A stretch of 35,619 bases of DNA from Anaerolineae bacterium (GTDB lineage: Bacteria > Chloroflexota > Anaerolineae > 4572-78 > J111), in the NCBI GenBank assembly GCA_016931895.1, contig JAFGDY010000220.1:1-35619 (forward strand), in the 5' to 3' direction. Below are positions 1-28,154 of this stretch, one piece after another (within the stretch, counting starts at the first letter, position 1; the number at the start of each line of letters is the position of its first letter). Position numbers and translations under genes: made by a program. Below the pieces are notes generated by a model that saw only the letters and a program-made list of their open reading frames with translations, was not told the origin of the DNA and did not search any database.

Positions 1-150
1 CTGGTTGGCGGCGTACCGGTCACAGTTGGCGTAACCTGTGAGGGTGTAGGCGTACTGGTTGGCGGCGTACCGGTCACAGTTGGCGTACTCGTTGGCGGCG
101 TGCCAGTCATGGTTGGCGTCGGCGTTGACGGGGTGGGGGTAGGCGTGGAG
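1..150 (-). repeat. Thr/Pro-coding tandem repeat array 3 (continues off window)
   Basis: On the minus strand the DNA encodes repeated TPTVTGTPPTS-type units of 11 residues (33 bp) within the surface-protein gene. It is the most regular of the three arrays, with near-identical copies, and is cut by the left window edge. It probably forms an extended, possibly glycosylated, spacer between folded domains. Confidence 0.85.
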
Positions 151-2858
151 GTCAGCGGGGGCAGGGCAAAATCACGCTCCGGTTGGGCGCGCAAGTCCGC
201 TACCGAGACGGGGAGTGACACTGTTTCATGGCCGGTCGCCCAGGCCTCTATAGTAACCTGCGTACAGGCATCAAGATATATACCCGGCAGCAAGAGGCTG
301 TAACGCCCATCCGTGCCCGTTTGGGTTTGATAACGACGAGGCTGGCACAAAAGTACAGATACCGTTGCCTCCGGGATGATCTGAGTTGGGCCACCCGTCG
401 CGTCATACACTAAACCCGTCATCATCAGGTCGCCGGCCGGAGTGCTGGTGGGAGTGGGGGTAGGTGTTGGCGGGATGCTGGTCATGGTGGGGGTAGGTGT
501 TGGCGGCGTGCCGGTAACAGTTGGGGTAGAAGTTGATGGCGGCATGGTTGGCGTTGGCGGCTGGCCGGTGACGGTTGGCGTGGAAGTTGGCGGTTGACCG
601 GTCACGGTCGGTGTGGCCGTCGGCGGCTGGCTGGTGACAGTTGGCGTGGCCGTTGACGGAGTGCTTGTAACAGTAGGCTGAGGTTGAATGGAAACAGAGT
701 AATCATGGCTAATGAGGTCAAAGGGGGTGGCCATAGGATCACCGATTCTTTCATTGGCAAAGGTAAACGTGACTTCACCTGCTGTGCCAATGGCGGTTGC
801 CTCAAACGTAAGCAGGGGGACGTTGCCCATTAAACCCGCCACTTGCCCCTGCCGGGTAGCCAGAAAAGAAATCTGGCCTATCTCGTTATGGATATTTTGC
901 AAAATCACAAAGGGCAGATCAGGATTGATCTGCAAATTGCCAGCCGAGATTAGAGAGGGGTTATAATTTATTTCAAATTGCGCGCCGTAAAGGCCTAAAC
1001 CACCCACATCCAAAGCCTGCACGGTCACGCTGAAGGTGTCCCCGGAAATCACTGAAGCAGGCCCATTAAAGACCAAGTTTAGCGGGGGTACTGGTGTAGC
1101 CGTTGGCGGCGTGCCGGTGACGGTGGGGGTGGCTGTGGGAGGTGTGCCGGTGATAGTAGGCGTAGCTGTTGGTGGTGTTCCGGTGGCGGTAGGTGTTTCG
1201 GTGGGCGGCGTGCCGGTCACGGTGGGCGTTGGCGTGGGGGTAACATCTGGAATGTCTTCAAAAATCAAAACAGCGCCACCAACCTGATCACTGGCAGGGT
1301 AATCGCTCCAGCAGCGGTCGGGTACATAAACTTTGTTATTGTTGGGGTTGAGGGCAATTTCAAAGGGATTGCGCCACTGGAGGTTATCGGCAACATAGGG
1401 GGGATTGCCCACAACTTGACCGGGAAATTTCCAAACATCAGCAGTGACGCCGGGGAGTAAATTGCCTTCCCGGTCGGTGGCGTAGGTTCCGCCCCGGGCC
1501 GGATGATTACAGGCGGCTTCGTCGCCCCCATTATCAACATAGGCAAAACCGGCGTAAGTGCCAAGCATGCGGTGGGTAGCCGGATTGTAGACCAGGCCCA
1601 CTTCGGCATAGTCGCCTACTTCAATCTCGGCTCTGGACAAGGTCACGTTCTCTGGATTAAGCAGAGAAAGATTGTAAACCAGCAATTTATTTGGATTGGG
1701 GAAAACGCCGCTCAGTTGGCGAGTATCATCGGCATAAGTTATAAACAGGTGCGCTTCGTCAACGCCCTCGTCCTGCCAAAGGCCAACCGCGTGGGGGATG
1801 CCGCTCCGTTGTCCACCCGGTGTGTCAAACAAGATGTCGTAATAAGTTTTGGAAATAGTGGCCGTATTGAATCCCAAAAATTTGAGAGGTTCCGAGTTAA
1901 TGGCATTACGCATGCTCAAAAAGTTGTGGCCCTGCAAACTCCGGGCAATGACGGTTTCAAATGGCCCGTGGCTGGAGGGAAAATTATTGGCATTGACCAG
2001 GGTGAGGATGGGCGAGATTGGGAAAGAGGCCGGATCATCATTAAGAATGATCACCCGCCCCCCCTCGTGGTCAGGAAAATGGACCCGTCCGGTAATGGGG
2101 TTGACCGCAGCGGAGGTTGGCTGGAAGGGAGCACCTGGGCTAACATTGGTAATGACCGTATCCGTATCAGGATTGATGGCGGTAATGATCCCATCGCCAA
2201 AGGAGCCAACGTAAACAAATTTGCCGTTGCCGGATACGCCTACGCCCCACGGCTCCCGCCCAATGCCCATCCCGTTGGGCGCGCCCGGCGCCGAACCATT
2301 CTCGCCGCCGGGAATGGTGCGCAGCACTTCGTCGGTTTCGCCATCAATCACCGCCACAAAGGGGTAAGGCTTAAGGCCGTCAACTATGGGTCCCTGGAAA
2401 GCCACATAGACCTTGTTGAGTTGGGCATGAACCGCCACACCTTTAGGGTGAACCGGATACACCGCGCCCAGGGTCACCGTGGCCGACTCGTCGGCAGCCA
2501 GGGTCACCGGGGTGCGGGCAGTGGTGGGATAGTAACCCTGCGTTGAGCCGGCGAAGCGGAGAAAAGGAGCATAATCACCGGCGGGCAAGCCGGCAAAGGT
2601 AGCCGGCACCGGCTGGCAGGAGGTTTCATCATTCAAGCAGGCTTCTGCGCCCAACAGTGGTTCCTCGCCGGCAGCACAAATCCCATCAGCGTTCTGATCC
2701 TGGCAGGCATTGACCGTAATTTGGCCTGCTTGCGCGCCGGCCGTGCCGGTCAACAAAAGCAACAGGATGATGGCCGTCAACAAGGCGCTACCCCGAAACG
2801 TCATTACCCTCCAAAAGCTTATATCTCCTCTGAAGATTCTTCCGGTATCAAGAATCAT
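1..2858 (-). CDS. Secreted multidomain surface protein: propeller, cohesin-like domain, Thr/Pro linkers (C-terminus off window)
   Basis: I translated the minus strand from the ATG at 2858 and found one open frame to the window edge (about 952 residues, no stop). A signal peptide lies at about residues 19-44 (hydrophobic LLTAIILLLLL then AQA). A short SdrD_B-like stretch follows (about 46-110, DQNADG...GEEPLLGA). Residues about 110-535 contain YVTN/SMP-type propeller phrases such as GKFVYVGSFGDG and NNNKVYVPD. Next are a Thr/Pro linker, a cohesin-like beta domain (about 591-723, starting NLVFNGPASVISGDTFSV), a second linker, a carboxypeptidase-regulatory-like domain (about 808-899, GTDGRYSLLLPG) and a third linker. 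The start at 2858 has AAGGGAG six bases upstream; an in-frame ATG at 2804 is the alternative. The protein is probably exported and displayed on or released from the cell; ligand unknown. Domain names are from pattern recognition only. Confidence 0.85.
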   Translation of the reverse strand, partial: MILDTGRIFRGDISFWRVMTFRGSALLTAIILLLLLTGTAGAQAGQITVNACQDQNADGICAAGEEPLLGAEACLNDETSCQPVPATFAGLPAGDYAPFLRFAGSTQGYYPTTARTPVTLAADESATVTLGAVYPVHPKGVAVHAQLNKVYVAFQGPIVDGLKPYPFVAVIDGETDEVLRTIPGGENGSAPGAPNGMGIGREPWGVGVSGNGKFVYVGSFGDGIITAINPDTDTVITNVSPGAPFQPTSAAVNPITGRVHFPDHEGGRVIILNDDPASFPISPILTLVNANNFPSSHGPFETVIARSLQGHNFLSMRNAINSEPLKFLGFNTATISKTYYDILFDTPGGQRSGIPHAVGLWQDEGVDEAHLFITYADDTRQLSGVFPNPNKLLVYNLSLLNPENVTLSRAEIEVGDYAEVGLVYNPATHRMLGTYAGFAYVDNGGDEAACNHPARGGTYATDREGNLLPGVTADVWKFPGQVVGNPPYVADNLQWRNPFEIALNPNNNKVYVPDRCWSDYPASDQVGGAVLIFEDIPDVTPTPTPTVTGTPPTETPTATGTPPTATPTITGTPPTATPTVTGTPPTATPVPPLNLVFNGPASVISGDTFSVTVQALDVGGLGLYGAQFEINYNPSLISAGNLQINPDLPFVILQNIHNEIGQISFLATRQGQVAGLMGNVPLLTFEATAIGTAGEVTFTFANERIGDPMATPFDLISHDYSVSIQPQPTVTSTPSTATPTVTSQPPTATPTVTGQPPTSTPTVTGQPPTPTMPPSTSTPTVTGTPPTPTPTMTSIPPTPTPTPTSTPAGDLMMTGLVYDATGGPTQIIPEATVSVLLCQPRRYQTQTGTDGRYSLLLPGIYLDACTQVTIEAWATGHETVSLPVSVADLRAQPERDFALPPLTSTPTPTPSTPTPTMTGTPPTSTPTVTGTPPTSTPTPSQVTPTVTGTPPT
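440..682 (-). repeat. Thr/Pro-coding tandem repeat array 2
   Basis: Minus-strand codons give TPTVTGQPPT and TPTVTGTPPT variants between the cohesin-like domain and the carboxypeptidase-regulatory-like domain. Units are more diverged than in the array at 1-150 (TGQ, TSQ and TSI forms). Confidence 0.85.
1091..1242 (-). repeat. Thr/Pro-coding tandem repeat array 1
   Basis: Four to five 33-bp units encoding TPT(V/A/I)TGTPPT(A/E) join the propeller region to the cohesin-like domain of the surface protein. Confidence 0.85.
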
Positions 2859-2964: not shown

Positions 2965-3023
2965 TAAAAAACAAAAAACCGCTCATCGTGGCGATGTCTG
3001 CTATCGCCACAGCCTGCGGTTTT
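2965..3023 (-). terminator. Strong intrinsic-terminator-like hairpin in the leader of the surface-protein gene
   Basis: Two nested inverted repeats are visible: AAAACCGC (2975-2982) with GCGGTTTT (3016-3023), and GTGGCGAT (2988-2995) with ATCGCCAC (3003-3010), with a 7-base loop and five-base internal loops on each side. Read on the minus strand, the stem ends in TTTTTTGTTTTTT, as in a Rho-independent terminator. No convincing gene lies just upstream on that strand, so it may be an attenuator for the gene starting at 2858. Confidence 0.7.
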
Positions 3024-3224
3024 GAATATACATGCTAAATCCAGACGAGTTGCCGGCGCACCCCGCCCTGCTCTGAAGCAATCACTCATACTGTCAAGTC
3101 GGCAAAAGAAGAATTTTGTTGTAAAGGTACAAATAATACTCTGTAAGTTTAACATACATAATAGGTTAATAACAATGGGAGTTCCTTCCTACCTCGGCTC
3201 TTTTCGCAAATTTTCCCTTTTTAC

Positions 3225-3253
3225 TTGGCCAGTTGTTCAGCCTATGGTATCCT
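3225..3253 (+). promoter_or_regulatory. Possible promoter of yigZ
   Basis: TTGGCC, a 17-base spacer and TATCCT are followed only seven bases later by the ATG at 3261. Both hexamers match the sigma70 consensus at four of six positions. If used, the transcript would start at or within a base or two of the ATG. Confidence 0.4.
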
Positions 3254-3260
3254 TGGCCTT

Positions 3261-3869
3261 ATGAGCAAACAATACCCAATTCCGGCCGGTGAATCACGCA
3301 TTGAATTACGGGTAAAAAACTCCCGGTTCATTGGCCGGGCCGGATACACGCCCAGCGTGAAAACGGCCAAAGCCTTCATCGAAAAAGTAAAAACTGAAGA
3401 ACCCAAATGTTCGCATGCTGTTTATGCTTTTGCCATAGGGTACGGCGCTTCGGTAACGCACGGGATGAGTGACGCCGGGGAGCCAAGCGGTACCGCCGGC
3501 CGGCCCGCTCTGGCGGTAGTCAAAGGAAGCGGGTTGGGTGACGTGACCGTGGTCATCATCCGGTATTTTGGCGGCGCCAAGTTAGGCACGGGCGGCCTGG
3601 TTAAAGCCTACACTGAGGCAACTCAACTGGCCCTGGCCGAACTCCCTATCACCGAAAAAGTAGAACGGTTATCGGTGCAAGTGACCCTCCCCTATAACTT
3701 TTATGAACAGGGCAAACGTCTGATTGAAACGCATCACGGCCAGATTGAGGCCGAGGAGTTTGCCGCTGAGATAACGCTTCACCTTATTTTTATTGTTGAC
3801 GAACTCCCGGCCTTTGAATCTGCTCTGGCCGAAATGACCAGCGGGCAAGCCGGTGTAATTTTGGATTAA
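3261..3869 (+). CDS. yigZ: YigZ/IMPACT family protein (UPF0029)
   Basis: The 202-residue product has the IMPACT-family core: KNSRFIGRAG near the N-terminus, CSHAVYAFAIG, DAGEPSGTAGRP and IIRYFGGAKLGTGGLVKAY, followed by a smaller C-terminal domain of the DUF1949 type. In bacteria the family is conserved but its biochemical role is not firmly settled; RNA-related and translation-linked functions have been proposed. The length is typical. I chose the ATG at 3261, because the family begins with MSKQY-like sequence; the frame is open further upstream from a TTG at 3225, but that segment overlaps the likely promoter. No clear Shine-Dalgarno sequence precedes the ATG. It is transcribed divergently from the surface-protein gene. 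Confidence 0.93.
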   Translation: MSKQYPIPAGESRIELRVKNSRFIGRAGYTPSVKTAKAFIEKVKTEEPKCSHAVYAFAIGYGASVTHGMSDAGEPSGTAGRPALAVVKGSGLGDVTVVIIRYFGGAKLGTGGLVKAYTEATQLALAELPITEKVERLSVQVTLPYNFYEQGKRLIETHHGQIEAEEFAAEITLHLIFIVDELPAFESALAEMTSGQAGVILD

Positions 3870-3885
3870 CGAGTTGCCACTGGAG

Positions 3886-3981
3886 GGTCTGTCCGACATT
3901 TTAGGAGGACCGGGGGGCGCAGGGGGTATCCCCCCGAATTCCTCCTGGTGTGTTCAGATTGTCTAAAATTCTGGACACACC
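3886..3981. repeat. Long imperfect inverted repeat between yigZ and glyS
   Basis: The outer arms GGTCTGTCCGACATTTTAG (from 3886) and the reverse complement of the segment ending at 3981 (GGTGTGTCCAGAATTTTAG) agree at 15 of 19 positions. Inner arms are AGGAGG-acc-GGGGGG and CCCCCC-gaatt-CCTCCT around an 11-12 base centre. About 96 bp in all and no coding sequence, so it resembles a miniature inverted-repeat element or a large structured 3' UTR. Confidence 0.65.
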
Positions 3982-3998
3982 CGTAAAACACCTATCCT

Positions 3999-4027
3999 TT
4001 GACAACCACTCCCACCTGCATTATCAT
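3999..4027 (+). promoter_or_regulatory. Sigma70-type promoter of glyS
   Basis: A perfect TTGACA (3999-4004), a 17-base spacer and TATCAT (4022-4027). The predicted transcript starts near 4034, giving a leader of about 26 bases that contains AGGA at 4047-4050 ahead of the glyS ATG. Confidence 0.8.
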
Positions 4028-4059
4028 AAGCCGATGAAATAACCATAGGATAACCCCGC

Positions 4060-5535
4060 ATGCCTGAGCACAAGGATTTAATGGAAAAACTAACCTCACT
4101 CTGTAAACGACGTGGTTTCATTTTTCAATCCAGCGAGATTTACGGCGGGATTGGCGGCTTCTGGGATTACGGCCCGTTGGGCGTGGAGCTGAAACGGAAT
4201 ATCAGAGAAGCCTGGTGGCGAGATATGGTTACCGGGCACGACGACCTGACCGTGCCATCCGGCGCCCCTGCCGCTTATGCCATGGTCGGTCTTGACTGTA
4301 GCATTATCATGCATCCCCAGGTATGGAAGGTAAGCGGTCACTATGATATGTTTCACGATATGCTGGTAGACTGCCGTACCAAAGGTTGCAAGGCCAGGTT
4401 TCGGGCCGACCACCTGACCACCAGTCAATGCCCCCTCAAACCCAGCAAACAGCCGGGCCAGCATAATCAATGTAACCTGACCGAACCCCGCGAATTCAAT
4501 CTTATGTTCAAAACCAACGTAGGCGCGCTGTTTGACCCATCGTCTGAAGCGTTCCTGCGGCCCGAAACCGCCCAGGGAATTTTTATAAACTTCAAGAATG
4601 TACTGGATACAACCCGCCTTAAAATACCCTTTGGCATTGCTCAAATAGGAAAAAGTTTTCGGAATGAAATCACTCCCAGGAACTACACCTTCCGTTCCCG
4701 AGAGTTTGAGCAGATGGAGATAGAATTTTTTTGCCGGCCCGACCAATCTCCTCAATGGTACACCTACTGGCGAGACCGGCGATTTGCCTGGTATACGGCC
4801 TTGGGCCTGAAAAGCGAAAAACTGCGCCTGCGCGACCATGACCCGGCTGAACTGAGCCACTACAGTTGCGGCACCGCCGACATTGAATATGCCTTTCCAT
4901 TTCTACCGCCAGGCGAATTTGGGGAATTGGAGGGCATTGCTCACAGAGGTGATTTTGATTTAAGAAGCCACATGGAAGGAAAATTGGTGCGTCAAGGTGA
5001 TGATTTTATCGTTGAACGCGACGAGCAGGGTCGTCCCCGCTACCCTGGCAGCGGCAAAGATTTGAGCTATTTTGATGACCAGGCCAAAGAACGATTTATT
5101 CCCCATGTAATTGAACCCTCAGCCGGGGCCGACCGGGCCGCGCTGGCCTTTTTGTGCGAGGCGTATACGGAAGATGCAATTGAAGATAGCCAGGGTAAGC
5201 CTCAGCCGCGGGTGGTTATGAAACTCCATCCCCGCCTGGCGCCCATAAAGGTGGCCGTTTTGCCTTTGGTGAAACGAGACGGGATGCCGGAAATTGCCCA
5301 GGATATTTATCGAGCCTTAAAACGGCGTTGGAATGTGTTTTATGATGAAACAAGTTCCGTTGGCCGGCGTTATCGCCGTCAGGACGAATCCGGCACGCCT
5401 TTTTGCGTTACCGTAGACAGCCAAACCTTAGTTAATCAAACCGTGACCCTGCGCGAACGCGATACCACGCGGCAGGAGCGGGTCGCCATTAACGATTTAG
5501 AGGGCATTATCCACAAGCAGATCGAAGCAGATTGA
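4060..5535 (+). CDS. glyS: Glycyl-tRNA synthetase, dimeric (archaeal/eukaryotic-type) class II
   Basis: The 491-residue enzyme charges tRNA-Gly with glycine. It is the single-chain alpha2 type, not the bacterial alpha2beta2 GlyQ/GlyS. The N-terminus has the family signature RRGFIFQSSEIYGG and FWDYGPLG. Class II motif 2 is FRNE at residues 200-203 followed by TPR and REFEQMEIEFF; motif 3 is EPSAGADRAALAF from residue 352. The C-terminal anticodon-binding domain begins near LHPRLAPIKVAVLPL. An insertion with Cys residues (CRTKGCKARF, SQCPLKP) lies between motifs 1 and 2. Length matches family members of about 460-510 residues. It has its own promoter and an AGGA ribosome site nine bases before ATG. 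The small gene at 5579 follows 43 bases downstream and may be co-transcribed. Confidence 0.97.
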   Translation: MPEHKDLMEKLTSLCKRRGFIFQSSEIYGGIGGFWDYGPLGVELKRNIREAWWRDMVTGHDDLTVPSGAPAAYAMVGLDCSIIMHPQVWKVSGHYDMFHDMLVDCRTKGCKARFRADHLTTSQCPLKPSKQPGQHNQCNLTEPREFNLMFKTNVGALFDPSSEAFLRPETAQGIFINFKNVLDTTRLKIPFGIAQIGKSFRNEITPRNYTFRSREFEQMEIEFFCRPDQSPQWYTYWRDRRFAWYTALGLKSEKLRLRDHDPAELSHYSCGTADIEYAFPFLPPGEFGELEGIAHRGDFDLRSHMEGKLVRQGDDFIVERDEQGRPRYPGSGKDLSYFDDQAKERFIPHVIEPSAGADRAALAFLCEAYTEDAIEDSQGKPQPRVVMKLHPRLAPIKVAVLPLVKRDGMPEIAQDIYRALKRRWNVFYDETSSVGRRYRRQDESGTPFCVTVDSQTLVNQTVTLRERDTTRQERVAINDLEGIIHKQIEAD

Positions 5536-5578
5536 AGTTTGCGCTCAAGCAAAAGATTTTTTGCGGAGAAATCAAGCA

Positions 5579-5791
5579 ATGAGTGAAGAAAAAATAACCA
5601 TTACCATCAAACGTCGAGACCGGACGATGGTCTTTCCGGTGAGCGAGCGGGACAAATTACGCGACATCTTAAAAGATCGCATTTGGTGGGACCGCCGCAG
5701 TAATCGCTGGGCCGGGCGAGGAGATATTGACGAATTGAAACAAACTTTAGAAGCGCATGGCTATCAAGTTAAATTAACCGGGCCAAGGTGA
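5579..5791 (+). CDS. Small conserved-looking hypothetical protein, 70 residues
   Basis: I chose the ATG at 5579, with GGAG about ten bases upstream; the frame also opens at a TTG at 5561. The protein is soluble and basic: beta-rich start (KITITIKRRDRTMVFPV), then RDILKDRIWWDRRSNRWAG and a helix ending LEAHGYQVKL. The pattern of a helix, W-D-R...W and a terminal helix followed by G-(Y/F) resembles a small domain sometimes attached to DNA helicases of superfamily 2 (the R-W-D...W motif), but this is a weak analogy. It follows glyS in the same direction and ends before a strong bidirectional terminator, so it may share the glyS transcript. Function unknown. Confidence 0.75.
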   Translation: MSEEKITITIKRRDRTMVFPVSERDKLRDILKDRIWWDRRSNRWAGRGDIDELKQTLEAHGYQVKLTGPR

Positions 5792-5864
5792 CCCCATCAT
5801 CATAAACATCCAAAAGATATTGACCTGTCCACAACCCGCCGCACTTGATGGTCCGGTGAACAAT

Positions 5865-5896
5865 AAAAAAACCGGGAATTGCAGCCCGGTTTTTTT
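5865..5896. terminator. Bidirectional intrinsic terminator
   Basis: AAAAAAACCGGG (5865-5876) pairs with CCCGGTTTTTTT (5885-5896) around an eight-base loop. The A and T tracts make it work in both directions, ending the glyS/small-gene transcript from the left and the L25 transcript from the right. Confidence 0.9.
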
Positions 5897-5921
5897 AGCC
5901 AATGTTTAATTCCAAACTCTA

Positions 5922-5992
5922 ATTTTCTCGTTCTCAAACTCCAGTTTGGGGCCAAACAAGTTTGGGGCCAACAGATTTGGAAACGAGAAAAT
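5922..5992. repeat. Small palindromic repeat with CGTT(C/T)(C/T)CAAAC-type core
   Basis: ATTTTCTCGTT (5922-5932) is the perfect inverted copy of AACGAGAAAAT (5982-5992). Between them lie CTCAAACTCCAGTTTGG and a direct repeat of AGTTTGGGGCCAA-like sequence. It sits between the terminator and the end of the L25 gene and resembles the palindrome at 20301-20339. Confidence 0.6.
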
Positions 5993-6021
5993 CTTTATTG
6001 TCCGTATAAGCCGGCAGGAGA

Positions 6022-6678
6022 TTATTCCTCTTCTTCCACTTTTTCCCTGGTCTCGCCAATCACTTCCGGTTCGGCGCTAACTTCGGTGATTTCCTCTTCC
6101 TCTTCTTCCTCTAACCGCGGCGGTTCAATCTTAACCACCATTGAGTCGGGATCAGACAGGATAGTGACAGAACTGGGTACCACCAAATCGGCCACGGTCA
6201 GGGTTTCGTTATACTCGGTTAAGCCGTCTATGTTAACGGAAATAGCCGAGAGCAGGTCTGAGGGCAGACATTCAATTTCAATTTCATCCAGACCCTGGGT
6301 CAAAACCCCACCTTTTTCCTTCACCGCCGGCGCAATCCCTTCTAGAATCAACGGCACCTGGGCTGTGACCTTTTCGTCCATTTTCACGGCATAAAAGTCA
6401 ACGTGTAAGTAATGATGTTTAATAATGTCTCGTTGAATATCCCGGGCCAGAGTCATCAGGGGTTTATGCTTGCCCACCTGCAACGAAATGAGTTGGTGCG
6501 TACCGGCCTCTTTTAAAACCTTGCCCAGCGCTTTTGCTTCAATTTGCAGCAAAGTGGCAGCCGTGTCTCGACCATATAGAACAGCAGGCACCAACCCATC
6601 CCGGCGCAAATGCTTAACATGGCTGCCGCTTATCTCACGTACTTCTGCCTTTAACTCAAGAGATTCCATAATTTTCAT
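6022..6678 (-). CDS. rplY: 50S ribosomal protein L25 / general stress protein Ctc
   Basis: The 218-residue product has the long (TL5/Ctc) form: an N-terminal 5S-rRNA-binding L25 domain (about 1-95, with VPAVLYGRD and HVDFYAV) and a C-terminal beta domain (about 100-190, with VPLILEG, EIEIECLPSDLL and VTILSDPDSMVVKI). It binds 5S rRNA in the large ribosomal subunit. The last 30 residues are a very acidic tail (EEEEEEE and EKVEEEE), common in this family. The ATG at 6678 follows GGGAG closely (three bases); an in-frame ATG at 6669 has the same motif at a longer distance. A possible promoter at 6785-6812 would place a terminator-like hairpin inside the leader. Confidence 0.93.
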   Translation of the reverse strand: MKIMESLELKAEVREISGSHVKHLRRDGLVPAVLYGRDTAATLLQIEAKALGKVLKEAGTHQLISLQVGKHKPLMTLARDIQRDIIKHHYLHVDFYAVKMDEKVTAQVPLILEGIAPAVKEKGGVLTQGLDEIEIECLPSDLLSAISVNIDGLTEYNETLTVADLVVPSSVTILSDPDSMVVKIEPPRLEEEEEEEITEVSAEPEVIGETREKVEEEE

Positions 6679-6740
6679 TCACTCCCTTAATTGCCCTTCC
6701 CGCCCTGTCCGGGGCAAGGCAACCAGTTTATATTCTTGAC

Positions 6741-6764
6741 AAAGAAAAATCGCCTACCGGCGAT
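6741..6764 (-). terminator. Intrinsic terminator after the 105-residue protein gene
   Basis: On the minus strand ATCGCC-GGTA-GGCGAT is followed by TTTTTCTTT. It lies 83 bases beyond the stop codon of the gene at 6847-7164 and upstream of the L25 gene, so it either ends that transcript or acts in the L25 leader. Confidence 0.75.
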
Positions 6765-6784
6765 CAACTAAAAACAACTCTACT

Positions 6785-6812
6785 ATTTTATTGATAACAA
6801 CGTTTTCGTCAA
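6785..6812 (-). promoter_or_regulatory. Possible promoter for the L25 gene
   Basis: TTGACG (6812-6807), a 16-base spacer and TAAAAT (6790-6785) on the minus strand. A transcript from here would start near 6778 and run through the hairpin at 6764-6749 before reaching the L25 start, so attenuation is possible. Confidence 0.4.
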
Positions 6813-6846
6813 ATTTATTATCTACAAATTTTGAAATTCTTAAAGG

Positions 6847-7164
6847 TCAGTCGCTTTGGGGCTGGACGGCCTCATATTCTTCAGCCGTAATGAACTCGCC
6901 GTGGTTGATTTCTCGCTTGACAAGCCGGCGATTATCGTCAAAATAGAGCGTTACCTCAATGCGTTGAAAACAGAGTTGGTTGCCCATGAGGGTTTTGTTG
7001 ACTACATAGCCCCCCTGGTCGCCGGCGCTGAGGCTGTTTCGCAGATCAAGGCGAGTTTTGATCACCTCGCCGCAACGGCCACAGCGCACATAAAGCCAAT
7101 ACCCCCCGGCATCTCCTCCCCTCCCTCCGGCAAACAGTGATTTTAGTGAATCCAGAAAACTCAT
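6847..7164 (-). CDS. Uncharacterised protein with a CxxC motif, 105 residues
   Basis: I do not recognise a named family. The protein starts with a hydrophilic-amphipathic segment (MSFLDSLKSLFAGG) and a glycine stretch, then a compact domain with YVRCGRCGEVIKTRLDL, a further Cys at QLCFQRIEV and the ending FITAEEYEAV. The CxxC pair could bind zinc, but only three Cys are visible, so an intact ribbon would need another ligand or a dimer. Start at ATG 7164 is well supported by GGAAGGG six bases upstream and a good promoter at 7204-7232. It is a single-gene unit on the minus strand, ended by the hairpin at 6741-6764. Confidence 0.8.
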   Translation of the reverse strand: MSFLDSLKSLFAGGRGGDAGGYWLYVRCGRCGEVIKTRLDLRNSLSAGDQGGYVVNKTLMGNQLCFQRIEVTLYFDDNRRLVKREINHGEFITAEEYEAVQPQSD

Positions 7165-7203
7165 TTTTACCCTTCCCTGTTTGAATAATTTTTGAGAACC
7201 TTA

Positions 7204-7232
7204 ATCATATCTCAGGAAACGCGATTCGGCAA
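7204..7232 (-). promoter_or_regulatory. Sigma70-type promoter of the 105-residue protein gene
   Basis: TTGCCG (7232-7227), a 17-base spacer and TATGAT (7209-7204) on the minus strand. Transcription would start near 7197, about 33 bases before the ATG at 7164. Confidence 0.7.
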
Positions 7233-7239
7233 TATTCTG

Positions 7240-7665
7240 TTAACGGCTGTAATGATAAATGAAAAGCACCACCGCCAAAAAAATGGTTTCCTTAAGAAAC
7301 CGGATAGGTTTGAGTTTCAACCGTCCCTGGTAAAAATGATACGGCCGCACCGGAAAAAGCCAGGGCACGCGCCTGATATCATCGGCCAGGAGATGACCCA
7401 GATGGCCTACAAACCAGGCCAGCCCCACGGTTTTGCCCCACACCAGGGCCACCGCCAAAGAGAGGCCTATCACGCTAAAAATGTTGTGGGCATAATGCCG
7501 GCCGTTGGGCATCAGGTGAAACACGTAACCAATGGCTTTGTCTACCAGGTCCGGGAAAACACTGGCGATCAGTAAAGGTTTGAGCATAACCTGTTCATCC
7601 TGGCCCTGCAAAACCAGAAAACGATGTTCAACCAGGGCTACGGCGATGTGTCCGGGAATATGCAT
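7240..7665 (-). CDS. YdjM-like membrane protein (putative metal-dependent hydrolase family)
   Basis: The 141-residue product shows the His/Asp pattern of the YdjM/DUF457 group of inner-membrane putative hydrolases: an early HIPGHIAVAL, FPDLVDKA, GRHYAHNIF and GHLGHLLADDI. Hydrophobic segments at about residues 65-90 and 120-137 suggest membrane insertion. The biochemical activity of the family is not established. I chose the ATG at 7665; it lies two bases after the stop codon of the upstream aminotransferase gene (TGATTATG), so translation is probably coupled. It is the last gene of a three-gene minus-strand operon. Confidence 0.75.
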   Translation of the reverse strand: MHIPGHIAVALVEHRFLVLQGQDEQVMLKPLLIASVFPDLVDKAIGYVFHLMPNGRHYAHNIFSVIGLSLAVALVWGKTVGLAWFVGHLGHLLADDIRRVPWLFPVRPYHFYQGRLKLKPIRFLKETIFLAVVLFIYHYSR

Positions 7666-7667
7666 AA

Positions 7668-8504
7668 TCAACCGGCAATCAGGTCCATGGTCTGGCGATA
7701 GTGGGCGGCAAACCGCTCCATCACTATTTGGGTAACCGGCCCTACCCGGCCATCGCCCACCGGCTGCCCCTCAATTTGGGTAACGGGTATCACGTGCATG
7801 CTGGTGCTGCTGATAAATAACTCGTCGTACAAGGATACCTCTACCGGAACCGATGTTTCAACCACCGGCCAGGCCGAGTCCGCCATCACCTGTAAAATCA
7901 CATCACGGGTAATGCCGGAAAGCACCGTTGCGGACGGCGGCGTCATCAGTTGCCCCTGGCAAACGGCAAAGATATTGCTGCGCGCGCCTTCGGTCAGATG
8001 ACCGTCGTGGTAAAGCAGCCCCTCCAAGGCCCCAACCCGGACGGCGGCGCGACGAGCCAAATAATTGACCAGCGTATTCAGGCTTTTGCAAGCGGGGATG
8101 GCTCGCCGGCCTTGATACAAAATAGCGGCTGAGCCTTCACGGTAAAGTGAAGCAGGGTAAATGGGTAAAGGTTCCGGCCACATGCCAATAATTGGACCGA
8201 CGCCATCCCCAACATCACCCAGGGCCAGGACCCGCATCGTCCAGGTAGCCTGGGGATCCGTGCGGAGCAAGGTCCGAAACCAGCCGGCCAGGGTATCAAC
8301 TTCAACGCCCAAATCCAATTCGATCATCCGGGCTGAATTGAACAAACGGCAGAGGTACTCCTCCAGATAAAAAGGGCGGCCCCGGTCAACCTTCACCGTT
8401 TCATAAACCCCAAAGCTGGAAAACAGGGCCTTGTTGAAAATGGGAATTTGAGCCTGGCCAACCGGCAAGAGTGCGCCGTTGAGGATAGCGTAGTCAAAAA
8501 TCAT
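7668..8504 (-). CDS. Class IV aminotransferase (PLP-dependent; branched-chain/D-amino-acid aminotransferase or ADC-lyase-like)
   Basis: The 278-residue product has the fold-type IV signatures: FGVYETVKVDRGRPFYLEEY near residues 31-50, the PLP-binding lysine K140 in ACKSLNTLVNY, and LTEGARSNIFA with the conserved Glu at 172. The family covers branched-chain aminotransferase (IlvE), D-amino-acid aminotransferase and 4-amino-4-deoxychorismate lyase; I cannot decide between them from sequence alone. Length is normal. The ATG at 8504 overlaps the stop codon of the upstream SDR gene in an ATGA arrangement; the frame is open a further four codons to a TTG at 8516. Context of an SDR and a membrane protein does not settle the substrate. 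Confidence 0.9.
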   Translation of the reverse strand: MIFDYAILNGALLPVGQAQIPIFNKALFSSFGVYETVKVDRGRPFYLEEYLCRLFNSARMIELDLGVEVDTLAGWFRTLLRTDPQATWTMRVLALGDVGDGVGPIIGMWPEPLPIYPASLYREGSAAILYQGRRAIPACKSLNTLVNYLARRAAVRVGALEGLLYHDGHLTEGARSNIFAVCQGQLMTPPSATVLSGITRDVILQVMADSAWPVVETSVPVEVSLYDELFISSTSMHVIPVTQIEGQPVGDGRVGPVTQIVMERFAAHYRQTMDLIAG

Positions 8505-9286
8505 GAGCCAACCCAACGTCTACTCAATAGCCGGTCCATCAGCCCCGGCCAAAACAGACTGGCCGCGACAAACGTCCGGTCAAACAAAGTAATAAACACG
8601 TCGCGCTGCTCGCGGCGAATGGTTTTTAAAATGGCCCGGGCTACCCGCTCCGGGGGCACACCCGACATGCGTCCTCGCCCGGCCTGGCTGCTTCCCAACG
8701 AATGGTCGTTAAAGCTAGTGGCCGTAACACCAGGGTATACCGTGCTGACCCGGACGTTGTCCGCCTTTAGCTCGACCCGCAGGCTTTCGGCCATTTTTTC
8801 CAGCGCGGCTTTGCTGGCGCAATAGCCCGCGATACCCGGCATGGCCCGTCGCCCCACAATGGACGAAATATTGATGATCAGGCCGCCCCGGGAATTAGCT
8901 TTGAGGTAAGGCAAAGCGGCCCGAATCAAGGCCAGCGGGCCAAAGTAGTTCACGTCCATCACCCGGCGAGCCTCTTCTTCCCGGAAATCAAGTACGCTAT
9001 CGCGCACGCCAATGGCCGCATTATTAATAACCACGTCAATTCCGCCAAAAGCCGCTGCTGTTTTGGAGGCCAAAGCGGCAGCCTGGGTCGGGTCGCCCAT
9101 ATCGGTGGGGATGGGGATGGCCGGTCGGCCGGCCGCAGCCAATTCCGCCGCCAATTCTTGCAACACCGCCCCATCGCGAGCGGCCAGCGCCAGCTTACAA
9201 CCGGCCCCGGCCAGCACATAAGCCGCAGCTCGACCTATACCTTGGGTAGCGCCGGTAAGGATAACCACCCGATTTTCAGGAGTCAT
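8501..9286 (-). CDS. Short-chain dehydrogenase/reductase
   Basis: The 261-residue protein is a classical SDR that uses NAD(P)H on an unidentified alcohol or ketone. Visible motifs are the cofactor glycine motif TGATQGIG (residues 11-18), NNAA (88-91), the structural Asn 113, the catalytic Ser 142 in NISS, and YCASK with Tyr 155 and Lys 159. R37 in AARDG after the second strand suggests NADP preference. The C-terminal segment (VAASLFWPGLMDRLLSRRW) is hydrophobic and may touch the membrane, as in some DltE/YqjQ-like SDRs. It is first in an operon with the aminotransferase. The ATG lies seven bases after a -10 box, so its mRNA may have no leader. Confidence 0.92.
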   Translation of the reverse strand: MTPENRVVILTGATQGIGRAAAYVLAGAGCKLALAARDGAVLQELAAELAAAGRPAIPIPTDMGDPTQAAALASKTAAAFGGIDVVINNAAIGVRDSVLDFREEEARRVMDVNYFGPLALIRAALPYLKANSRGGLIINISSIVGRRAMPGIAGYCASKAALEKMAESLRVELKADNVRVSTVYPGVTATSFNDHSLGSSQAGRGRMSGVPPERVARAILKTIRREQRDVFITLFDRTFVAASLFWPGLMDRLLSRRWVGS

Positions 9287-9293
9287 AAATGGG

Positions 9294-9321
9294 ATTGTAC
9301 GCTAAAGTGAGCAGGGCGCAA
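9294..9321 (-). promoter_or_regulatory. Promoter of the SDR operon, predicted leaderless start
   Basis: TTGCGC (9321-9316), a 16-base spacer and TACAAT (9299-9294) on the minus strand. Only seven bases separate the -10 box from the ATG at 9286, so the transcription start falls at or next to the start codon. No Shine-Dalgarno sequence is present. Confidence 0.6.
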
Positions 9322-9334
9322 AAGTGAAAAGGGG

Positions 9335-11521
9335 TTAACAGTCACTTTTTTTGTGGTTTGCAGGCCGGGCTTGAGTTTGCGCGTAACCCAACCCCGCCAT
9401 CCGGCGAACAGCCACCAGCACCAATAACATCAGGCTCATCAGCACAATCAGCCCGGCGCTGAGAAAACGAAGCACGGCCAGCCGGGTTTCGTGGGCATTT
9501 CGGGCAGCAATGGTTTCTGGGGAAAGAGGGGATGCCTGTTCCGGTTGAACAATTTCAGGCCTATCTGCGGCCACCTCCTCTGTGGCCAAAGATACGCTTT
9601 CAGGGGCACGAGCAGGGGTTGCCTGTGCTGGAGAAACTGCTTCGGACGCAGGCGCGTTGTTGGCGGCGGCCCCGGGGGTTGGCGATTTTAGCTGAGAAGC
9701 AGCGTTTGATTCAGGGGCTTGGGAGATTTCAACAGCGGCAGGTTGGGCCAGGGGTTGTCCCTTAATAATTTCCAAGCTATGCTGACCGCCAGGCCCAACC
9801 AACACGGTGTACGTATCGTGGCCAATGGTTTCAGGCTCAAACTCAACCGGATGGCCGTCAATAGTGACCTGCCTGACCTGCTCCGACCGCAATTTTAAGA
9901 CCTTGATCATCACTGCGCCGTTGGCATTGGTGCCATAATCAATTCTGGTAATATCCTGGCCCCAATCGTAGCTATAGGCCGCATAACGGTCGGTGGCGGC
10001 TTGATAAACGCGAATAAAGCCGTCGTTAAGGCCCAAACGAGGTTGCAGGGTTAAACCGCGACCATCCAATTCAACGCCAAACAACCCTTCAATGATGGCG
10101 CTGCCCATTGTTCCGGCGGCGGCGCTGTAATAGTGGCTGCCTTCAAGCCGCCGGTCGGTGGTGGAATGCCACTCAATGATGTTGCCGGGATGTTTTTGCC
10201 ACTCATTGGCCACTTGCAACAAATGCGCGCGCCCGGCGTCGGCAAAGCCGGTCAGAAATTCGGCCTTGATCTGCACGCCGCCCCACCAGTCCCACACGCC
10301 GCCATTCTGATAATTACCGTAGCCCATCCCGGGGTAGTCAAAAAAACGGTCGGGCCACCGATTAGGATAAAAGGGATAAAGGGAAAGGCCGGGTTTTTTG
10401 GCGCCAACGGCCAGACGCGCCTGTTCCAGATTGTCAAAAATGGCTTTGTTTTGGCGGAAGTCGGTTAGGCCGGCATAAACGGCCAGGGCGTTAGAAATAC
10501 TAATCATGCCCGACTCATCAAAATTATGCTCCAGGGGGGTAACGTGAGCGTGGGTCAGATAAAAGCCTTTATCAGCCTGCCAGAGCAAAACATTGGTTTT
10601 TTCTTTCAAAACTTCAGCCCTGTTCTGCCACTGGTCGGCGCGAGCGGTATTGCCTGCGGCGGCGTTCATTTTAGCCAGTTCAATCAGGGCCATATAGGCC
10701 AGGGCTTGATCATAAATAGAGGCGGTAAGATGGTCCTGGGCGGGGTTGTAATCGGTATAGCCGGGGCCTTTTTCAACTTTGACATCTCCCCAATCGGTGG
10801 TATGGCCTCGCCAGAGCAACTGTAAGTCAGGGTCAAGGCGGCGGGCATAGACCCAATCAGCGGCCAGGTTAAGGCGTTCAATGATGGGCAAGCCGTTGAT
10901 ATTGCTTTGCAGCCAGCCGGTGTTGTAGGCCAGGTTGTAATAAAGATAAGCGGCGTGGATCAGGCTGGTTTCTTCGTCGGTGGTGATGGTTTGTTTGTTA
11001 CTGCGGCCATCCGGGGTAATGATGCCGCCAATGGCGCCGGCCCCGGCCACAACGCCAAAATCGCCGTCGAGGCTGCGGCTGTTGGCCGTGTATTGCCGGC
11101 GCAGGTAGGCTTCAATCGGTTCGCGCAGGTAGGCGTCGGGATAGTAGTATTGGGCCGTTTCCATGCCCCAGGCAATGTCCCGCACGTACATTTCGGGGTA
11201 AACCTTACCCGGACGAAAGCCGTGAATAACTTCGTTGCCAATTTGGAAAATGGCTTCGCCGTGCGAGAAGTTATGGGGAATGTAACCGGCGGTGGCGCTC
11301 AAATCCGGCAAACCGGGCAGCAGCCAGGTGGTCTCTGTATTGTAAGATAAATCTGTGGGTAAAGCCCGATTAGCCCGGGCCGGTTGAGCCGGAGTGGCCA
11401 GCAAACCCAGCACCAGGAGCAGACAGGCGGCAGACAAAATAAAGAACAGCGGCCTTGGCCCAAAGAAGCGAGGCCCTAAAAATGGTTGGGGTTTTTCTCT
11501 TGCGCGCGCCGGGTGTTTCAT
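9335..11521 (-). CDS. Membrane-anchored six-hairpin-glycosidase-like protein
   Basis: The 728-residue protein has a signal or anchor helix at about 26-44 (LFFILSAACLLLVLGLL then TPAQPARA), a catalytic-like (alpha/alpha)6 region at about 60-500, a small beta region to about 590, a Pro/Ala/Glu-rich linker (about 595-680), a transmembrane helix (about 682-705) and a short basic tail. Phrases typical of six-hairpin glycosidases (amylo-1,6-glucosidase, GH63 or MGH1-like groups) include YVRDIAWGMETAQYY, DYNPAQDHLTASIYDQALAY, NGGVWDWWGGVQIKAEF and NIIEWHS. The likely role is cleavage of an oligosaccharide outside the membrane; substrate unknown. I cannot assign a GH family or the catalytic acids with certainty. 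It has its own promoter at 11566-11594 and stands alone on the minus strand. Confidence 0.8.
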   Translation of the reverse strand: MKHPARAREKPQPFLGPRFFGPRPLFFILSAACLLLVLGLLATPAQPARANRALPTDLSYNTETTWLLPGLPDLSATAGYIPHNFSHGEAIFQIGNEVIHGFRPGKVYPEMYVRDIAWGMETAQYYYPDAYLREPIEAYLRRQYTANSRSLDGDFGVVAGAGAIGGIITPDGRSNKQTITTDEETSLIHAAYLYYNLAYNTGWLQSNINGLPIIERLNLAADWVYARRLDPDLQLLWRGHTTDWGDVKVEKGPGYTDYNPAQDHLTASIYDQALAYMALIELAKMNAAAGNTARADQWQNRAEVLKEKTNVLLWQADKGFYLTHAHVTPLEHNFDESGMISISNALAVYAGLTDFRQNKAIFDNLEQARLAVGAKKPGLSLYPFYPNRWPDRFFDYPGMGYGNYQNGGVWDWWGGVQIKAEFLTGFADAGRAHLLQVANEWQKHPGNIIEWHSTTDRRLEGSHYYSAAAGTMGSAIIEGLFGVELDGRGLTLQPRLGLNDGFIRVYQAATDRYAAYSYDWGQDITRIDYGTNANGAVMIKVLKLRSEQVRQVTIDGHPVEFEPETIGHDTYTVLVGPGGQHSLEIIKGQPLAQPAAVEISQAPESNAASQLKSPTPGAAANNAPASEAVSPAQATPARAPESVSLATEEVAADRPEIVQPEQASPLSPETIAARNAHETRLAVLRFLSAGLIVLMSLMLLVLVAVRRMAGLGYAQTQARPANHKKSDC

Positions 11522-21891: not shown

Positions 21892-24800
21892 TTATAAGTT
21901 GGCCTGACTTTCGGCAAAAGCCCGGTCGGTTTCTTCCAGGTGGCGAGCGTGATAATTATTCAAAAAAACTTGTTGCAAGGTTTCGTCTTGCAAACTATCG
22001 GCCAATCTTTTTTGGAGTTTTTGGGCGTAAGCAACGGCGTCTCTTGAGGCAGGGCTATTGCCCGTCATACGATACACATACGCCTTTTGGGTCTGGATCA
22101 AATATTGGCTCAGGCGACTATCAATTTTTTCAGCCGTTTCCGAAGCTTTAAGTAATATCTCCAGGGCCGGATTGTAACGCTGATGACGAATATCAATGAT
22201 TGACTGCAACCATTGCCCCCGGATGAGAAACTCTTTCATATCACTGGCCGAGGCCAATACTAACAGGTTTCGGGTAGTCTCGGTGGCTTGATCCCATTGA
22301 TTGGCCTCTATGTAAGCCCGGGTCAATTGATAGAGGATCATTACTTCATCAAGCGCCAGGCCCATTCTCCGCGCCACCGCCCGAACACCTTCCAACTCCT
22401 GGATGGCCTCATCCAGACGCTGCACGTGGCGATAGGCCGCGCCCAACATGGATTGCGCCCGCATCAAGTAGAAAGGAGAGCCAAGCTCCCGGGCAATATG
22501 CGTGCTTTGTTCCGCTTGTTGCAGGCCATCATTATTGAGGCCCAAATTCAAATAATAATAGCTCAGCCAGGCCATCCCCAAAACCTGGGCAGATTTTTGC
22601 CTTTGTTGGTGGGCCAGCCGCAGGCCCTCTTTTAAGTTTTCGCCGGCTGCGCCCAATTCGCCCTCGTGCAGCAGGCCAAATGCCCGATAGTATTTAATAA
22701 AAGAAACCTGGTACAAGTCGCCCGACCCCTGGTGCAGTTCAAGCGCTTCTTCGGCGGTTTGGTTGGCATTTTTGTAATCGGCCGTGAAGGTTTGGGCCAT
22801 CAGGATCGAAGTCAGGGAAGTCATCAAGCCGGTGCGGTATCCCAAACGACGCCGCGTTTTAATGATTTCTTCCTGATAACGTTCCAGGCTGGCTGCAATT
22901 TCACCCTGCTCCAACATTATTCTGGCCAAACCATCTTCCGCCTCGATCCGGCGCGCCTCATCTTTCAGGGCAATGCTGATTTCGCTGGCCTCGCGGTAAC
23001 ATTCGGTGGCCTCTTTCAATTGGCCCATGTGGTAATGGAAGTTGCCTAATTGATTCAAGGTATCGGCAATACCCTCTTTTTCGCCAATCCGCCGGGCCAC
23101 AGACAGCGCGTCTTCCAAAAAACTCAGCGCCAGCGATGAATCATAATGGCTGGCGTGAAGCGACCCCAAGCCATTGAGCGCCCGCATTTCGGCCAGGTCA
23201 TCATTGAGTTCTTGGGCCTTGTCCAAAATTGTTTCATAATCGGCAATTGCTTTTTGGGGTTCACCCAGGCGGGTGAGAATGTTGGCCCGGCCCTGGTAAA
23301 GGGCCAGCAGGGTGGCCTGATCCAGTTCTTCCGGGGCGATGAGTTTAGACACTTCCAGAGCGCGGCTATAAAATTCAACCGCTTCCTGGTTGGCAAAAGA
23401 TTGCACGGCGGCTTCGGCAGCGCGGTGCAGGTAGCGCATGGCCCTGGGCCAGGTTTCACTTTTGTAATAGTGCTCGGCCACAATGGGCGCGTACTCCTCG
23501 CCCAACATCCAGAAGAGATTAAAGGCCATATAATCGGCAATTTGTTTGTGCATCACCTTCCGCTGTTCGTGCAGCAAGCTGTTGTAGGCTGTTTCATGAG
23601 TCAGCACATGCTTGAACATGTATTCCGGTTCGGGGTCGCGGGTGCGGACTTCAATCAAATCGGCTGCTTCCAATTGGTTCAACGCCTTTTCCAGAACGTC
23701 GGGTTCATTGATAATGGGGGCCAGCACCGAGCGGGAAAAGTAGCGGCCAATCACTGCCGCCACCTGCAAAACCCGTTTGACTTCCTCCTCCAGGCGGTCA
23801 ATACGAGCGGTGAGCACGCCTTGCAGGGTGTGGGGAATATCAACTTCGGTGATGGAACGCGCAATTTTCCAGTGACCATCGGCGTGTTCAATGGCCCCTT
23901 CTTCAATCAGGCTGCGCAACACTTCTTCCAAAAAGAGGGGGTTGCCTTCGGCGCGGCTGAGCAGCAGGTGCTCCAGCGTTTCAGGCATCTGGTCAATTTT
24001 TAGCAGATATTTGATAACCCGGCGACTTTCCGCGTCGGTGAGCGGCCAGAGGGGGAGTTCAATAAAACGGTCGGGATAATCCTGGGCAATGCGAGTTTTG
24101 ACCTGCCAAAAAGCAGCTTCTCTTTCGGGGCGACTGACACAAATCATCAAGATAGAGTTATAGACGGTCAGGGTTGATAAAAACTGGATCAGGTCTACCG
24201 AACTTGGGTCGGCCCAATGCAGGTCTTCAAAAACCATCAGCACCGGCTGTTGGGAGACCAGCGCCTCAACCCACTGGCCCATGGCCAGGAAGGTGCGCTG
24301 CTGTAAAACCTGCGGGTCGTTGAGCGGCAGGTTAGCGGCCAGTTCCTCGTCCAGGCTAATACCCAGCATAGTGGCCAGGTAGGGCGTAAATTCGTCTTTA
24401 CGCCGGCCAAATAATTTTTCGCCCATCTCCTCCAGGCGCAGCTTAACCAGGGTATCGTCGGGGTTTTCGGGAAGATCCAAATAACTGTAGAGAATGTCAA
24501 CAAAAAGACGGTTTTTGAAAGACTGCCGGTAAGAGAGGCCGCGCCCAAAAAGCCACAACGGGCTAAGACCATTGACCTGTTCTTCATCCACCTGTTTTTG
24601 AAATTCGGAGATGAGGCGTGATTTCCCCAGGCCAGCATCGCCGGTGACCACCACAATGCCGCCGCCCTGGTTGGTGGACAATTTTTTGTATTCAGCCACC
24701 AGGGTTTCCAGTTCATACTCGCGGCCAATAATAGGCGCTTCGGGTGGTTTGGGGCGGGAGCCGCCAACGCCCAATAACTGGTAAATCTTGAGCGGTTCGC

Positions 24801-25473: not shown

Positions 25474-25536
25474 AATCGATGGGGTTATCTGTACGGCATG
25501 TCGGCCAGTAGATTTTTTAACATATCCTACGCCCTG

Positions 25537-25565
25537 ATAATAGTACATTCCCCGTTATCTGTCAA
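25537..25565 (-). promoter_or_regulatory. Strong promoter of the cyclase-ATPase gene
   Basis: TTGACA (25565-25560), a 17-base spacer and TATTAT (25542-25537) on the minus strand. It overlaps the upstream open frame and thus decides that translation starts at 25473, with a leader of about 57 bases. Confidence 0.85.
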
Positions 25566-25601
25566 CGGCCCATTTTTACTAATCTTGACCACGCTATTTG
25601 T

Positions 25602-25629
25602 TTGTGCAACGCAGTGATTGTGGTATAAT
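25602..25629 (+). promoter_or_regulatory. Promoter of the mre-min-rodA cluster
   Basis: TTGTGC (25602-25607), a 16-base spacer and a perfect TATAAT (25624-25629) preceded by TGG, an extended -10. The start would be near 25636. It lies in the divergent region with the cyclase promoter, about 37 bases away. Confidence 0.75.
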
Positions 25630-25638
25630 TCAATCAAG

Positions 25639-25675
25639 ATAGGCAGGCGATGCGGTGCGTTGTGAGCCTGTCTAT
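25639..25675 (+). promoter_or_regulatory. 5' hairpin in the mreB leader
   Basis: ATAGGCAGGC (25639-25648) pairs with GCCTGTCTAT (25666-25675) with one G-U pair and a 17-base loop. It begins about three bases after the predicted transcription start and ends 26 bases before the GTG start, leaving the ribosome site GGAAGGAG free. Confidence 0.6.
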
Positions 25676-25701
25676 TATTATGTTGGAAGGAGATCTTTTA
25701 C

Positions 25702-26775: not shown

Positions 26776-26784
26776 CAGTGAGCC

Positions 26785-27651: not shown

Positions 27652-27653
27652 GC

Positions 27654-28154
27654 ATGTCTACCCTGATCCCCTTTGTCATTTTGATCAGCGCCGCTCTAGC
27701 TCAAACCACGCTAGCCCCCTACCTCAAAATTAGCGGTGTTCACCCCGATTTGGTATTTGTGCTGGTTATTGGTTGGATCACCCTGCGCGGCCTGGAAGAG
27801 GGATTTTTCTGGGCTTTAATCGGTGGGCTGAGTTTAGACTTTCTCTCTGGAGCGCCCTTTGGCCTGTTTACTTTAACTATGCTCCTGGTCGCTCTGGTAA
27901 CCAACCTGTTCCACGGACGGCTTTTTGGCAGCAGCATTGTATTGCCCCTGGGCCTCACCTTCCCCTTGAGTTTGCTCTTCAACGGCCTGGCCTTGCTTTT
28001 TTTAACCCTGTTAGGGCGACACATTATGTGGGACGTTGCTTTTTTCAGTAAACTCCTGCCTGTTTCCATTTTTAATACCATGGTGATGATGCTGGCCTTT
28101 CCCCTCTTGTATCTCCTCAATCGTTTTTTGACGCCCCGGCAGCTTTCATTTTAG
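27654..28154 (+). CDS. mreD: Rod shape-determining protein MreD
   Basis: The 166-residue integral membrane protein has about five to six hydrophobic segments and the family pattern SGVHPDLVFVLVIGWITLRGLEEGFFWALIGGLSLDFLSGAPFG. It acts with MreC and RodA-PBP2 in cell-wall elongation. It starts two bases after the stop of mreC and is probably translationally coupled. A 54-base gap with a promoter-like element separates it from mrdA. Confidence 0.92.
   Translation: MSTLIPFVILISAALAQTTLAPYLKISGVHPDLVFVLVIGWITLRGLEEGFFWALIGGLSLDFLSGAPFGLFTLTMLLVALVTNLFHGRLFGSSIVLPLGLTFPLSLLFNGLALLFLTLLGRHIMWDVAFFSKLLPVSIFNTMVMMLAFPLLYLLNRFLTPRQLSF

Follow-up and report, generated by a model that had tools for sequence, protein, structure and literature searches.

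Cohesin and dockerin modules are familiar chiefly from cellulosomes, whose parts they hold together, and a 2009 paper, going by its title, reportedly describes both modules outside these complexes. The closest published idea that we found to the system considered here is the planctosome of freshwater Planctomycetes, a hypothetical assembly outlined as a cohesin anchor, an adaptor with dockerin, cohesin, and signal peptide, and peptidases that are proposed to dock (PMC6461901). The stretch of DNA analyzed here, hereafter the window, is the complete 35,619-base contig C220 of an Anaerolineae genome (G000; 6.06 Mb, 320 contigs), and the gene in question occupies its left end. We favor, with moderate confidence, the reading that it encodes a secreted scaffoldin of adaptor type, bearing a single cohesin and a single dockerin, in a non-cellulosomal surface assembly, where this protein would dock to a membrane-anchored cohesin of a kind designated B1.

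The window gene and its continuation on contig C52

The gene runs on the minus strand from an ATG at 2858 (or a TTG at 2933) to base 3 and remains open past the left end of the window; the coding sequence comprises 952 codons in the window (3..2858) and 313 more on contig C52 of the same genome. A preliminary description of this DNA had proposed extending the gene leftwards, and it can indeed be followed: a DNA search with window positions 1-250 retrieved this linker sequence again where C52 ends, within an open frame of 329 residues ending in a dockerin. Window positions 1..51 are identical to the last 51 bases of C52, with the frame continuous across the overlap and the 51-mer single-copy in each contig; C52 adds 313 residues before a stop, its minus-strand frame (C52:6846-7835) encoding the remainder of the linker and, at the C-terminus, an X-module-like domain with a dockerin. 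The joined protein has ~1265 amino acids, provided that the linker repeat is not collapsed. In a genome from the same genus (G001, Anaerolineae isolate Zod_Metabat.569), an orthologue of 1171 amino acids on G001:C3 combines propeller, cohesin, X-module-like domain, and dockerin in a single frame, and a 9872-base record of that isolate (L078) proved, in a contig scan, identical letter for letter within G001:C3. The window part matches this orthologue at 73.6% over 488 residues and 65.9% over 132; for the C52 part, the match is 67.9% across the final 156 residues of the orthologue (1016-1171). Synteny extends to both sides, since six further consecutive window genes (3225 to 11521) have counterparts in the same order on G001:C3, 72-84% identical, and the C52 gene at 3022-3777, beyond the other end, matches a gene past the orthologue at 75% (BLAST). 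Because the 51-base overlap, the continuous frame, the same-genus orthologue, and the synteny agree, we take C52 to hold the missing end of the window gene.

Module order can be read directly from the translated gene, and the parts sketched in the preliminary description (a cohesin-like domain, a long propeller, a regulatory-like domain, and Thr/Pro linkers) are all recognizable in it. A hydrophobic signal peptide (residues 19-44; 2727..2804, by eye and hydropathy peak) precedes an N-terminal beta domain (2460..2726), delimited by homologue alignment and at best SdrD_B-like (weak match, E 0.12). A YVTN/S-layer-type beta-propeller follows (residues 134-541; 1236..2459). It is matched by Pfam and NCBIfam only below the cut-offs (NHL, 12.9 bits; YVTN repeat TIGR02276, 19.7 versus 27.85 bits); a profile of eight homologues (A2) aligns with the surface-layer protein structure 1l0q_A, from Methanosarcina, at E 5.4e-23, and TIGR02276 clears its cut-off of 27.85 bits in a paralogue on contig C315 (28.7 bits). 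The contig scan also returned a record from Anammoxibacter (L077) that encodes a YVTN-like protein. Linker 1 (1092..1235; 73% Thr plus Pro) leads to the cohesin (residues 590-725; 684..1091), which had previously been placed at 683-1087. PF00963 covers its residues 604-699 with 26.6 bits against a cut-off of 24.1 in the Pfam scan, which answers the profile search suggested earlier, and with 29.4 bits in the PF00963 genome search; the cohesin of the G001:C3 orthologue likewise reaches 26.6 bits (Pfam). A cohesin profile matches solved cohesins, e.g., 5lxv_A at E 6.7e-5, across the first third of the domain only. On these sequence matches, we consider the PF00963 domain a genuine cohesin. Beyond linker 2 (432..683) lies a carboxypeptidase-regulatory-like domain (192..419), matched by PF13620 only in a separate scan of this segment (26.5 bits, E 8.2e-6, below the cut-off of 32.3) and, by eye, having no counterpart at this place in the G001:C3 orthologue. 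Linker 3 (3..191) leaves the contig.

The dockerin on C52 scores 23.0 bits with PF00404, barely above the cut-off of 22.9, and contains two calcium-loop motifs; that of the orthologue stays below the cut-off in hmmscan (18.9 bits) and reaches 23.5 bits in the genome search when scored together with its neighbours. Directly before the C52 dockerin stands the X-module-like, or carboxypeptidase-regulatory, domain (PF13620, 29.4 bits, below the cut-off of 32.3). The C52 segment alone matches the scaffoldin chain 4wi0_B at E 2.6e-5 over residues 10-120 of 129, spanning both modules, and a 19-row profile of such domain pairs retrieves 4wi0_B (E 7.9e-14) and 2b59_B (E 1.7e-13) with both modules matched. 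These two scaffoldin chains consist of an X-module and a type II dockerin, which the C-terminal pair of the window protein resembles in sequence. Because the C52 end carries this pair, the protein is better read as a one-cohesin, one-dockerin adaptor than as an isolated cohesin. The idea of a cohesin without a partner was discarded, the same protein bearing a dockerin.

Proposed docking partners and competing readings

The two modules travel together among relatives. Across 41 genomes (G000 and 40 relatives) surveyed with Pfam at E 0.001, 28 had a cohesin and 25 a dockerin; both occurred in 25, a cohesin only in three (G016, G030, and G036), a dockerin only in none, and neither in 13 (Fisher 3.2e-8, kinship ignored). 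Cohesin and dockerin matches were found in 1 and 2, respectively, of 14 control genomes. With a custom dockerin profile, the cohesin-only G036 also has dockerins, and G007, which lacks both modules by Pfam, has a cut cohesin detected by the B1 profile. Because the custom cohesin and dockerin profiles were seeded mainly with G000 sequences, those of G000 score high by construction. A scan of viral contigs returned no cohesin relatives. G000 itself is rich in both modules, with 16 PF00963 matches at E<=1 (11 above the cut-off, one of these only with in-frame neighbours) and 14 PF00404 matches, those above the cut-off being eight rows in seven frames. Candidates for the dockerin-bearing partners that the preliminary description had proposed to seek are present as 14 proteins, among them a subtilase, amidase-like proteins, and propellers. 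Its statement that the cohesin lies outside any cellulosome context is right insofar as no cellulase link was found in G000, and misleading because of the many cohesins and dockerins in the genome and the X-module-like domain and dockerin of the protein itself.

Loci for phylogenetic trees were taken from the Pfam matches, and the cohesin figures below apply among the matches listed, some weaker ones being left out. Filtering (cohesins scoring 45 or more across 110 residues or more; dockerins scoring 40 or more) retained 120/184 cohesin and 112/130 dockerin domains, of which 75 and 80, respectively, came from 11 family genomes. In these family genomes, one cohesin clade, A, unites 31 of the 75 domains, including that of the window (support 0.985), and one dockerin clade, alpha, unites 23 of 80, including that of C52 (support 0.992). 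Group A is thus one supported clade versus the rest in a midpoint-rooted tree, group B being the remaining cohesins and no clade. Proteins with both modules combine A with alpha (20) or B with beta (19) and never cross (0/39, filtered and among the matches listed), and the window and C52 protein would be the 21st A plus alpha case. This linkage may reflect binding specificity or shared descent.

The candidate anchors of the window protein come from group B1. A B1 profile matches the scaffoldin cohesins 3l8q_A (E 2.3e-16) and 4u3s_A (E 1.8e-5). Since the sequence of 4u3s_A is that of a chain of 4wi0, the alpha and B1 profiles match two chains of one solved entry, and docking to B1 anchors is favored because B1 cohesins match scaffoldin cohesins that are partners of the alpha-matched dockerin chains. 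Both groups stand out by score in 12 family genomes, with 24 alpha pairs at 149.8 bits or more (next match, 89.5) and nine B1 anchors at 215 bits or more (next, 135), and they share the same 7/12 genomes (Fisher 0.0013). The sequences themselves show the modules and their order, the dockerin on C52, the wealth of cohesins and dockerins in G000, the anchored cohesins, and the joint occurrence of both modules among relatives; we infer cohesin-dockerin binding, the choice of partners, and what the propeller would bind. The C-terminal X-module-like domain and alpha dockerin would plug into a single-pass membrane-anchored B1 cohesin, such as C36:33518-34432 or C154:5490-6332 of G000; the group A cohesin would then hold a second dockerin protein, and the propeller would face outward as a functional or adhesive head.

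Several points weigh against this docking scheme. The A plus alpha and B plus beta linkage also fits self-pairing. An A plus alpha gene adjoins 6/9 B1 genes, so gene linkage explains part of the co-occurrence of alpha pairs and B1 anchors, which also reflects ancestry. The score gaps are partly built in, all nine B1 and 19/24 alpha matches being rows of their own profiles. In G007, a cohesin truncated where its contig stops scores 81 bits with the B1 profile and finds B1 anchors as its best BLAST matches (34-42% identity), and this genome gave no alpha match; if G007 is counted as B1, seven genomes have both, one B1 only, and four neither. The genomes without alpha are 55-87% complete. Because beta-type dockerins match the same structures as alpha, B1 docking is to be read as a preference rather than proof, and the G007 fragment and the profiles containing their own rows further lower confidence in the pairing. 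Single-sequence structure models were too poor to use (mean pLDDT, 43.9 for the cohesin and 32.6 for the N-terminus and propeller), and copies of the linker, being a repeat, may have been collapsed at the join with C52.

The alternative that best survives, which we regard as possible and rather unlikely, is a homotypic polymer in which alpha dockerins bind group A cohesins, so that propeller proteins, together with their paralogues, would join end to end and build up a surface layer or fibre. The pairing of A with alpha in single proteins, uncrossed among the 39 filtered cases, and the S-layer type of the propeller speak for such a polymer; nevertheless, the fused pairs may simply reflect common descent, alpha dockerins track B1 anchors across the 12 family genomes (G007 being a doubtful exception), and G003, G008, and G011 have A cohesins without an alpha dockerin, though these genomes are 74-87% complete. 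A stand-alone adhesin, with the propeller doing the work and the cohesin and dockerin serving as spacers or persisting as relics, seems improbable to us: propeller and linkers do account for most of the protein and the cohesin match of 26.6 bits is modest, but cohesin, X-module, and calcium-loop residues are kept in homologues from several genera and the two modules co-occur across genomes. The earlier suggestion of an adhesin or scaffold stands for the surface scaffold, which the sequence supports, and gives way for a stand-alone adhesin, an adaptor link in a cohesin-dockerin assembly being the better description; adhesion by the propeller is possible. A true cellulosome component is very improbable and was dropped, in spite of the scaffoldin-like dockerin pair and cohesins and of two G005 proteins of the A plus alpha type headed by DUF5060 with an agarase-type galactose-binding domain and by Laminin_G_3 of the lectin/glucanase superfamily, since none of the 14 G000 dockerin proteins carries a glycoside hydrolase domain (Pfam, E 0.1; a very weak C41 match of 12.7 bits lies outside that scan) and GH48 was not found in G000, a result of little weight because the search was silent in control genomes too.

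Further cohesin and dockerin proteins and a possible route inward

Other members of the proposed adaptor assembly cluster on contig C36 of G000, in seven minus-strand genes with one short opposite-strand gene between them. A cohesin, X, and dockerin gene (34402-35493) is followed by the B1 anchor cohesin with its C-terminal hydrophobic helix (33518-34432) and the adjoining subtilase with dockerin (31524-33371). Next come two dockerin proteins, at 29172-30263 and 27519-29165, whose cohesin matches stay under the Pfam cut-off, and a pair of amidase-like proteins that carry a cohesin, the first of which (24855-27515) has its cohesin under the hmmscan cut-off. The subtilase dockerin reaches only 13 bits with Pfam, below the cut-off; the alpha profile A3 gives it 67.4 bits (E 5.5e-18). 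Those of the two amidase-like proteins, also not over the Pfam cut-off, score 67.2 and 75.5 bits with A3, and all three lie outside the rows of that profile. Three more anchored cohesins occur in G000: a B1 type with a hydrophobic tail helix (C154:5490-6332), one with a lipobox seen by eye (C125), and one with a lipobox, again by eye, and two LysM stretches (C315:39156-40334). The paralogue at C315:30277-33036 shares 56% identity and the layout of the window gene; its cohesin scores 44.3 bits, and its dockerin 17.8 bits with Pfam, below the cut-off; with A3, whose rows include it, the dockerin reaches 203.5 bits.

Elsewhere, A plus alpha proteins carry other heads, namely Laminin_G_3 in G005:C560, DUF5060 and a galactose-binding-like domain in G005:C446, and an AAA_35 ATPase and hydrophobic helix in G001:C136; in G010:C3:754913 and G006:C1, only a short N-terminus precedes the cohesin. 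On this comparison of architectures, we regard the propeller as one of several exchangeable heads. In a class-level relative, two loci encode five (L162, G031:C223) and three (L166, G031:C178; also with a dockerin) cohesin-like domains, weak matches of 24-41 bits each with the custom profile, and are possible multivalent scaffolds.

We also considered, as a speculative and improbable extension, that the cohesin-dockerin lattice of this family serves both for scaffolding and for sensing. The docking of adaptors such as the propeller protein on transmembrane cohesins would be read inside the cell, and cohesin-dockerin pairs would act as outside-in receptors. Candidate inward routes would be anchors with TPR tails, a recurrent RPSAFK tail, a nearby histidine kinase gene, and EAD7/TRADD-like or AAA_35 fusions. 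The RPSAFK motif is found near the C-terminus of 6/9 B1 anchors. A HisKA_3 histidine kinase gene lies near the B1 anchor at four of five loci tested (L186, G005:C786; L194, G006:C3; L114, G009:C7; L119, G010:C3), directly adjoining it except in G009, where it is one open reading frame (ORF) away; the fifth neighbour tested, on G000:C154, is a carboxyl transferase. At L114:10986-12002 (G009:C7:448985-450001) lies the gene for another type of membrane-anchored cohesin, whose helix is followed by a TPR tail (Pfam), and four relatives look alike by eye. The plus-strand gene at L074:9105-10700 (G000:C291) combines EAD7 and TRADD-like_N domains with a hydrophobic helix at about residue 210 and a Thr/Pro linker and ends in a group A cohesin; its product looks like a transmembrane receptor by sequence, and a full-length match was obtained only in G000 itself (61 genomes, E 1e-10). 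One protein at L089:1711-4821 (G001:C136) contains an AAA_35 ATPase, a hydrophobic helix at 372, TPR, an A cohesin, and an alpha dockerin.

Two further observations concern the contigs of the window gene. The minus-strand gene at window positions 21892-25548 fuses an adenylate/guanylate cyclase catalytic domain to an AAA ATPase and TPR repeats. On C52, the short ORF at L079:3781-4191 matches the start of one neighbour at the orthologous locus with its first 43 residues and the end of the next neighbour with its last 50, resembling a deletion scar; histidine-kinase-like and receiver-like genes, named by eye, adjoin it.

Comparison with described systems

In the Anaerolineae family, dockerins fall into two groups, one cohesin group can be told apart from the rest, and cohesins are anchored in several ways; the cargo of the proposed assembly would include a protease, amidase-like proteins, and S-layer-type propellers. 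If the pairs bind, they would form a surface-assembly system that is not cellulosomal and offers candidate orthogonal pairs, and the role of non-cellulosomal cohesins would become directly testable. We found no description of this system in titles and abstract openings on cohesin-dockerin in Chloroflexi, Anaerolineae, or Herpetosiphon or on YVTN with dockerin; it may nevertheless have been published.

Among known systems, the surface layer protein 1l0q shares the propeller repeat type, the match being confined to the propeller. Cellulosome scaffoldins (2b59, 4wi0, and 4u3s) share the C-terminal domain pair, related cohesins on cell anchors, and the adaptor with cohesin and dockerin; unlike them, the window protein has a single cohesin and a propeller head, and no cellulase was seen on the G000 dockerin proteins. 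The hypothetical planctosome has in common with the Anaerolineae assembly a cohesin anchor, a cohesin and dockerin adaptor, a dockerin-bearing peptidase, and no cellulose link (PMC6461901), and the subtilase at C36:31524-33371 beside the anchor cohesin at C36:33518-34432 forms such a pair in G000. The planctosome differs in its lamin tail domain anchor and HYR adaptor and in belonging to Planctomycetes, another phylum (PMC6461901); neither family turned up when anchors and adaptors of G000 were scanned with Pfam, which showed other domains. Here, in contrast to that outline, anchors of single-pass, lipoprotein, or LysM type occur, and a YVTN propeller and an X-module-like domain belong to the adaptor. 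By analogy with what is outlined for the planctosome, the Anaerolineae assembly would work in the same way, with other anchors, other heads, and an X-module-like pair.

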